DNA from: a virus
Direction: 5' to 3' (one strand)
Virus record (IMG/VR): IMGVR_UViG_3300043410_000763
Location: 1-40,368 of that record
Length of the DNA stretch: 40,368 bases
The notes under the pieces are model-generated. The model was given only the letters and a program-made list of their open reading frames with translations, was not told the origin of the DNA and searched no databases. Within the stretch, counting starts at the first letter, position 1. Every line of letters begins with the position of its first letter. Below, piece by piece: positions 39,224 to 40,240 of this stretch. Both the position numbers and the translations under genes were made by a program.

Positions 39224-39297
39224 TCCCTGATGGTGTAGAGGTAACACAACGGATTTTGATTCCGTCGTCCTTGGTTCGATTCCAAGTCGGGGTGCCA
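39224..39297 (+). tRNA. tRNA-Gln (anticodon TTG)
   Basis: Cloverleaf: acceptor TCCCTGA/TCGGGGT with an unpaired first position, D stem GTGT/ACAC, anticodon stem ACGGA/TCCGT with loop TTTTGAT, T stem CTTGG/CCAAG with TTCGATT, encoded CCA. A weak first pair is normal for tRNA-Gln. Confidence 0.92.
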
Positions 39298-39390
39298 AAC
39301 AGAAACAAACTGGTCGTCTAATGATCAGGATAATGGACAGCACGTGCCATCAATGTAGGTTCAAGTCCTACTCAGTTTGTTTCTGTTTGG
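39295..39390 (+). ncRNA. tRNA-like RNA closed by an 18-bp perfect helix
   Basis: CCAAACAGAAACAAACTG (39295-39312) is the exact reverse complement of 39373-39390. Inside lies a tRNA-like body: acceptor AAACTGG/TCAGTTT, a D-arm-like GTCT/GGAT, and a T arm GTAGG/CCTAC with TTCAAGT (39356-39372). The anticodon arm is abnormal: ATGG-a-C/GCCAT with a bulged A and loop AGCACGT, which lacks U33. No CCA is encoded after the acceptor. It could be a degenerate tRNA or a distinct stable RNA. Confidence 0.6.
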
Positions 39391-39395
39391 TATTT

Positions 39396-39469
39396 GGGAG
39401 TATAACTTAATGGTAAAGTAATCGGCTTTTAACCGATAAATCAGAGTTCAATTCTCTGTGCTCCTACCA
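39396..39469 (+). tRNA. tRNA-Lys (anticodon TTT)
   Basis: Acceptor GGGAGTA/TGCTCCT, D stem ACTT/AAGT, anticodon stem ATCGG/CCGAT with loop CTTTTAA, T stem CAGAG/CTCTG with TTCAATT, encoded CCA. Confidence 0.93.
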
Positions 39470-39481
39470 GTTTTCTTTGGT

Positions 39482-39555
39482 GTGACTATGATGTAGCGGT
39501 AGCATCTCAGATTGTGATTCTGATCGTATGGGTTCAACTCCCATTAGTCACCCCA
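39482..39555 (+). tRNA. tRNA-His (anticodon GTG)
   Basis: Acceptor GTGACTA/TAGTCAC, anticodon stem TCAGA/TCTGA with loop TTGTGAT, T stem ATGGG/CCCAT, C at position 73, encoded CCA. The base before the acceptor is T, not the G-1 that most bacterial tRNA-His genes encode. Confidence 0.92.
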
Positions 39556-39566
39556 AAGAAAATTGC

Positions 39567-39733: not shown

Positions 39734-39812
39734 TCCGTAAAATCCGAGCAAGGTGCATGGACCTGACTGTTAATCAGTGGTTAGTTGAGTTCGATTCTCA
39801 AATGCGGAGCCA
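39734..39812 (+). tRNA. tRNA-Asn (anticodon GTT)
   Basis: Acceptor TCCGTAA/ATGCGGA (last pair mismatched), D stem TCCG/TGGA, anticodon stem with CTGA/TCAG and loop CTGTTAA, T stem TTGAG/CTCAA with TTCGATT, G73, encoded CCA. Confidence 0.9.
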
Positions 39813-39896: not shown

Positions 39897-39904
39897 TGTT
39901 TTCT

Positions 39905-39979
39905 GGGGGCAGTAGTGGGCTACGGCTCTCCCTTGCAAGGAGGGTGTCTAGAAGGATTCGATTTCCTCGGTCTCCACCA
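39905..39979 (+). tRNA. tRNA-Ala (anticodon TGC)
   Basis: Acceptor GGGGGCA/GGTCTCC with wobble pairs and a mismatch, anticodon stem TCTCC/GGAGG with loop CTTGCAA, T stem AAGGA/TCCTC with TTCGATT, encoded CCA. Slightly irregular, so the exact ends are less sure. Confidence 0.85.
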
Positions 39980-39987
39980 GATTATAT

Positions 39988-40151: not shown

Positions 40152-40240
40152 GGAGGGTTATCTCAGCTGGGCTGAGCACTGTCTTGAAAACAGTTGGACT
40201 GCGGAAGCGGTTGGAGTTCGATTCTACCATCCCTCCTCCA
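40152..40240 (+). tRNA. tRNA-Ser (anticodon TGA)
   Basis: Class II tRNA with a long variable arm (region CTGCGGAAGCGG). Acceptor GGAGGG/CCCTCC, anticodon stem ACTGT/ACAGT with loop CTTGAAA, T arm TTCGATT, encoded CCA. Last tRNA of the cluster. Confidence 0.92.

Follow-up and report, generated by a model that had tools for sequence, protein, structure and literature searches.

CCA-anchored stems between phage tRNA genes and their likeness to the intervening stem of permuted tmRNA

The window analysed here, a stretch of 40,368 nucleotides (positions 1 to 40,368 of IMG/VR virus record IMGVR_UViG_3300043410_000763), ends in a tRNA cluster (Table 1). Between tRNA-Gln and tRNA-Lys lies a perfect 18-bp inverted repeat, the arms of which are 60 nt apart; its left arm, the overlap of which with the CCA of tRNA-Gln had been seen in an earlier note on this DNA, begins exactly at that encoded CCA, and its right arm ends 5 nt before tRNA-Lys. 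The two arms close on a tRNA-like body, which we call X.

Table 1. Positions of the features discussed, in the window unless another locus is named
Feature	Position	Strand	Basis
tRNA-Gln (UUG), upstream partner	39224..39297	+	ARAGORN; RF00005 57.9 bits
Encoded CCA of tRNA-Gln, start of stem	39295-39297	+	
Left stem arm CCAAACAGAAACAAACTG	39295..39312	+	18/18 complementary to right arm
X, a tRNA-like body whose acceptor, D and T arms are present but whose anticodon arm is defective	39307..39379	+	RF00005; MFE fold
Right stem arm CAGTTTGTTTCTGTTTGG, terminal TGG pairs with CCA of tRNA-Gln	39373..39390	+	
tRNA-Lys (UUU), downstream partner, CCA overlapping next extended helix	39396..39469	+	ARAGORN
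Left arm, second extended helix, around tRNA-His	39468..39488	+	21 nt, 90% complementary to 39545-39565
tRNA-His (GUG), inside second helix	39482..39555	+	ARAGORN
Right arm, second extended helix	39545..39565	+	complementarity to left arm
Asn-like (GUU) tRNA	39735-39812		uncalled by ARAGORN and by Rfam at gathering score
Ala-like (UGC) tRNA	39904-39980		uncalled by ARAGORN and by Rfam at gathering score
Ser-type tRNA (UGA)	40152-40236		Rfam tRNA-Sec model score just above cut-off
Extended tRNA-His helices	window 39468-39565; L174, L205, L255, L267, L290, L296, L316, L324, others		
Permuted tmRNA genes with CCA-anchored stem (phages and one Cupriavidus plasmid)	L142:13937-14332; L190:7366-7766; L244:10539-10918; L248:11094-11546; L290 (minus); L355:1473-1923; L354:344-675		
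Interior family A1 in the window's phage, past the window end	L002:7522-7757		
Further A1 members	L003, L013, L146, L173, L232, L253, L260, L286, L296, L308, L324		

The repeat is not the only long helix of the cluster. The earlier note held that the other tRNAs lack one, which is contradicted by tRNA-His: it sits inside a second extended helix, and the CCA of tRNA-Lys, the tRNA before it, overlaps the left arm of that helix. Pairing of the 5' leader of tRNA-His with its own CCA and trailer recurs across loci, extending the acceptor by 11-14 bp, and outward helices of this kind were found at 26 of 2382 tRNAs, compared with 1 in the control. Three further tRNAs of the cluster, of Asn-like, Ala-like and Ser type, are listed in Table 1.

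The stem and the tRNA-like body X

The stem around X is the longest perfect inverted repeat of the 40-kb window, while the longest perfect repeats in dinucleotide shuffles of the cluster measure 7-11 bp. Its left arm allows one further G-U pair inward and an outward extension through UG. The fold of the whole X segment has a z of -7.0, equalled by 0 of 200 shuffles. A chance hairpin is ruled out for the stem by the shuffles, even though decay of a tRNA could well account for the interior.

X matches the tRNA family RF00005 with 38.7 bits, against a cut-off of 29. The earlier note looked to an Infernal-type score to place this body relative to tRNA, and the score does lie above the cut-off, but the match appeared only when a short stretch was scanned under permissive filters; wider Rfam scans missed the body, and ARAGORN did not call it as a tRNA. 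The anticodon arm, AUGG-A-C/G-CCAU, is abnormal in the manner first described, in that an A (A39337) is bulged out, the arm measures 18 nt where 17 would be normal, and U33 is missing; the body also lacks a following CCA, which the other tRNAs of the cluster encode. X thus has neither the normal anticodon arm of a tRNA (5 bp, a 7-nt loop, U33) nor its CCA end. Global alignment to tRNAs yielded no clear isotype, the best being Trp, Arg and Cys. It is unlikely that X is a working ordinary tRNA, and the interior would most simply be a decayed one.

What is conserved at this site was seen in related phages, which were reached through a small IscA-like gene upstream of the cluster. One record, L002, is identical to the window over the whole cluster, and therefore comes from the same or a nearly identical phage; it extends past the window end with many more tRNAs. 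Two of its tRNAs are separated, at L002:8005-8230, by about 225 nt that look structured and have a hairpin CATTGATAA..TTATCAATG at the end. Three others (L003, L005 and L006) have an RNA directly after tRNA-Gln, closed by a long helix from CCA to TGG and spanning 223, 81 and 142 nt, respectively. Their interiors vary in length and are not tRNA-like, so that the conserved feature of the site is the CCA-anchored stem and not the tRNA-like body. In these four records, chosen only by the neighbouring protein and not by any arm pattern, 8 of 57 tRNA CCA ends begin a helix with a score of at least 14, while 0 of 1140 shuffled ends even reach a score of 10. An ordinary tRNA at this place in relatives, standing there without the repeat, would have spoken against the earlier note; what the relatives have is the helix, with another interior.

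These observations also bear on the idea that X is nothing but a tRNA pseudogene beside a chance hairpin. The defective anticodon arm and the missing CCA would fit a pseudogene, but a perfect helix of 18 bp lies far from the shuffles, and relatives keep such a helix at the site around other interiors, which makes this explanation highly improbable.

CCA-anchored stems as a class

Pattern scans of viral contigs yielded about 198 distinct elements that start at the CCA end of a tRNA; they come from 134 loci, nearly all of uncultured phages. The elements span 43-341 nt (median 85), the upstream tRNA encodes CCA in every one of them, and the common arms are CCATATTRAARCACATTR and YAGTGTGTTTYAATATGG. 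Most of these loci were gathered with arm patterns, and the class size and the counts by isotype carry that selection; tRNA ends are those defined by ARAGORN. When arms were sought by sequence alone, 132 of 136 lay within 1.5 kb of a tRNA, 76 of them exactly at the CCA of a called tRNA. When geometry alone was used, 120 of 659 inter-tRNA gaps of 45-320 nt had at least 15 of 17 arm pairs, forming a clearly separate peak, compared with 17 gaps in a control with swapped partners; of the 120 helices, 64 reach precisely to nucleotide 2 of the tRNA that follows. One-sided tests gave the same picture, the right arm being present for 7/7 tRNA-anchored left arms and the left arm for 17/19 right arms at a tRNA start.

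The arms covary across elements. Many arm positions show several pair types, in elements that were preselected for pairing. Among elements chosen by the left arm and position only, a set that contains some gaps without an element, 71% of cells pair as opposed to 62% with redealt right arms; none of 500 such redealings reached the observed value, and arms slid by 1-3 positions gave 35-51%. At position 16 the usual pair is U.G, and at position 8 an A.C mismatch is frequent, meaning that pairing within the class is imperfect and that a strand test of G.U against A.C is ambiguous.

Judged by its arms, X is a diverged member of this class. Its helix of 18 bp (the class has 15 or more) runs from a tRNA CCA to a UGG near the next tRNA, but the consensus arm core CACATT/AGTGTG is missing from it. 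Homologues of X, sought by body or by arm pattern, were found in its own phage only, so the evidence for arm covariation comes from the other members. The covariation that the earlier note had proposed as a check is seen across the class, in arms other than those of X.

The tRNA that precedes a class element is mostly one for Glu, Lys or Gln. In loci gathered with the right arm only, they follow tRNA-Glu in 19 of 45 cases and tRNA-Lys in 18 of 33, but Met (0/56), Ser(GCU) (0/37) and Asp (0/30) in none; for Glu, Lys and Gln against the rest Fisher's test gives p = 5e-23, computed over related phages that are not independent.

The interiors fall into many small families, with 99 singletons, or about half. 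Several families recur behind different tRNAs in different phages, and a given tRNA pair may also occur free of any element, with a 6-nt spacer, which indicates that elements come, go and move. At L118:1-2661, about ten stems stand in tandem, with structured RNAs between them, some of which resemble degenerate tRNAs; inside the stem at 1183-1301 is a tRNA whose anticodon region is enlarged. Such turnover, the tandem run included, is what would be expected of mobile DNA cassettes, MITE-like or attC-like, that have inverted ends, insert at tRNA 3' ends and need the helix as DNA; conservation of the arm sequence beyond pairing points the same way. The covariation of the arms across elements argues against this, as does a position fixed exactly from the CCA to the next tRNA. 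The stem occurs moreover inside tmRNA genes, where it belongs to an RNA intervening sequence, and on inspection the consensus arms contain none of the R and L boxes (RYYYAAC / GTTRRRY) that form the core of integron attC sites. We regard cassettes that act as DNA as an unlikely explanation, bearing in mind that an element could be both mobile as DNA and cut as RNA.

The interiors might instead be the functional part, as stable trans-acting RNAs (tRNA mimics, decoys or anti-defence RNAs) to which the stem would give protection and from which it would be cut free. One interior family that fits is A1, a conserved structured RNA without a match in Rfam (216-251 nt in the alignment, 209-251 nt among the members in Table 1), which is found inside CCA-anchored stems, nearly always after tRNA-Glu, and has two-sided changes in 31 of its 54 predicted pairs. 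The tRNA-like score of X also fits such a role, as does a T arm beside the stem in 7 of 198 interiors, where 0.35 would be expected. However, half of the interiors are singletons and some elements are nearly plain hairpins of 43-66 nt, indicating that cargo is unnecessary, and X, with its defective anticodon arm, gives no indication of a target. A trans-acting role as the explanation of the class appears to us quite unlikely.

Likeness to permuted tmRNA and a proposed route of excision

Five of the six phage permuted (two-piece) tmRNAs in the collected loci, that of the cultured phage Melnitz among them, have a CCA-anchored stem that closes their intervening sequence. The tmRNA core GAARCACATT/AGTGYGYTTC, with the U.G included, corresponds to the inner portion of the arms between tRNAs and is found in many inter-tRNA elements. 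Among the five, L142, L190 and L244 have a core close to the consensus, and the tmRNA stem of Xanthomonas phage X1 has it as well, while Stenotrophomonas phage Mendera has a diverged form, the L290 stem differs in sequence, and the cultured Methylophilales phage Melnitz, the two-piece tmRNA of which had already been described (PMC9004378), has a shorter AAACACTT/AAGTGTTT. Among betaproteobacterial tmRNAs, plasmid-borne copies were examined for the stem GAAGCACATT/AGTGCGCTTC; two such copies, with CCACCAGAAGCACATTG and AGTGCGCTTCTGATGG, are found in the betaproteobacterium Cupriavidus pinatubonensis. X is flanked by tRNA-Gln and tRNA-Lys and does not lie inside a tmRNA gene, but its arms and the L142 tmRNA stem have CAGAAACA/TGTTTCTG in common; this match of 8 bp is suggestive only, and could be due to chance.

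Precursors of permuted tmRNA are cut by tRNA-processing enzymes, and the mature RNA lacks the intervening sequence (PMC11915505). We favour, with moderate confidence, the reading that the segment at 39295-39390 is an intervening RNA excised between tRNA-Gln and tRNA-Lys by this route. While both tRNAs are still part of one polycistronic precursor, the CCA of the first, with its trailer, would pair with the leader of the second, and the resulting stalk of 18-21 bp would close the intervening segment. Host tRNA-processing enzymes would then excise that segment: RNase P would cut where the next tRNA begins, while on the CCA side an endonuclease, RNase III-like or other, would act together with trimming. 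This would be the way in which the intervening sequence of permuted tmRNA, with its stem of class core, is removed, and it would leave the interior free to vary, down to a decayed tRNA in X. The sequences show the anatomy, the class, its anchoring at CCA ends, the covariation of the arms and the core in common with tmRNA stems; from these we infer the single precursor, the cutting and the enzymes, as well as that X acts like the consensus members. The end of the stem at nucleotides 1-2 of the next tRNA is consistent with release by RNase P. On the CCA side, RNase III is a plausible candidate for a stem of 18-21 bp, and it acts in the tRNA maturation of T4 (reviewed in PMC4810235); no phage-encoded RNase III was found in 20 related phage records, and a host enzyme must therefore be assumed. 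Of the roles that the earlier note had offered, a processing signal is the best supported, given the large class of tRNA stems and the core in common with tmRNA; a dsRNA substrate would also fit, and no observation here points to a decoy.

More tentatively, and at somewhat less than an even chance, environmental phages may have co-opted the stem that serves excision in permuted tmRNA and made it into movable cassettes, placed between tRNAs and mainly behind those for Glu, Lys and Gln, which would both release the ends of tRNAs and hold RNA cargo of various kinds, such as X.

Comparison with known systems

CCA-anchored stems between tRNA genes are widespread and apparently undescribed. Rfam has no family for the elements, its only matches in the loci being tRNA, tmRNA and one GOLLD; the consensus arms were absent from a bacterial genome collection, and BLAST found no elements between tRNAs of cultured phages, although the tmRNA form does occur in isolates. 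A text search of open-access papers (subscription papers lay outside its scope) returned nothing that resembles them. At least about 200 RNA elements of the tRNA arrays of uncultured phages thus stand outside Rfam, even though their arms are easily recognised, and many of the interior RNAs, including the covarying A1 family, are candidate new phage RNAs. The class ties phage tRNA arrays to the processing of permuted tmRNA and offers a testable account of how long arrays become separated into tRNAs; it also turns the strong preference for Glu, Lys and Gln into a direct question.

Several known RNAs share part of this anatomy. RNAs C and D of T4 (species 1 and 2), with which the earlier note compared X, are likewise stable non-tRNA RNAs, in a T4-type tRNA cluster, and RNA C terminates in a T-arm-like hairpin; they are not close relatives, however, since the folds and sequence of rnaC and rnaD contain no CCA-anchored closing helix. 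GOLLD and ROOL, two structured RNAs of as yet unknown function, also occur in phage tRNA islands, but are much larger and have defined folds, and class elements have no Rfam match; the GOLLD of L237 (2411-2870, minus strand) overlaps a tRNA in an array rich in CCA-anchored stems.

The theta (HDV-like) ribozymes of gut phages are likewise fixed to tRNA 3' ends, which they are proposed to make; their cleavage site lies at these ends (PMC10879173), where the elements also start. It is nevertheless very unlikely that the elements are self-cleaving ribozymes of this sort. A theta ribozyme is pseudoknotted, and only 4.5% of the tRNAs associated with it encode CCA (PMC10879173), whereas here all do so, and the two ends of an element pair with each other in one long closing helix, around interiors without a common conserved core. 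The hammerhead core was found in 0 of 198 elements, and no Rfam ribozyme matched.

The RNase III processing stalks of rRNA operons and T4 tRNA maturation are likewise long helices formed by the flanks of stable RNAs in a polycistronic precursor; the class differs in that its stems start at a tRNA CCA, stand between tRNAs and have a conserved arm sequence. The intervening sequence of permuted tmRNA (RF01850 beta_tmRNA, RF04321 tmRNA_permuted) likewise follows a 3' end with CCA and precedes the next 5' end, and has a CCA-anchored helix with the class core, CAGAAGCACATT/AGTGCGCTTCTG in Cupriavidus and CAGAAACACATT/AGTGTGTTTCTG in phage L142. Class elements, on the other hand, part two whole tRNAs and not two halves of one tmRNA, and most of them add four base pairs (TATT/AATA) to the helix and vary in their interiors, with the arms of X diverged further still.
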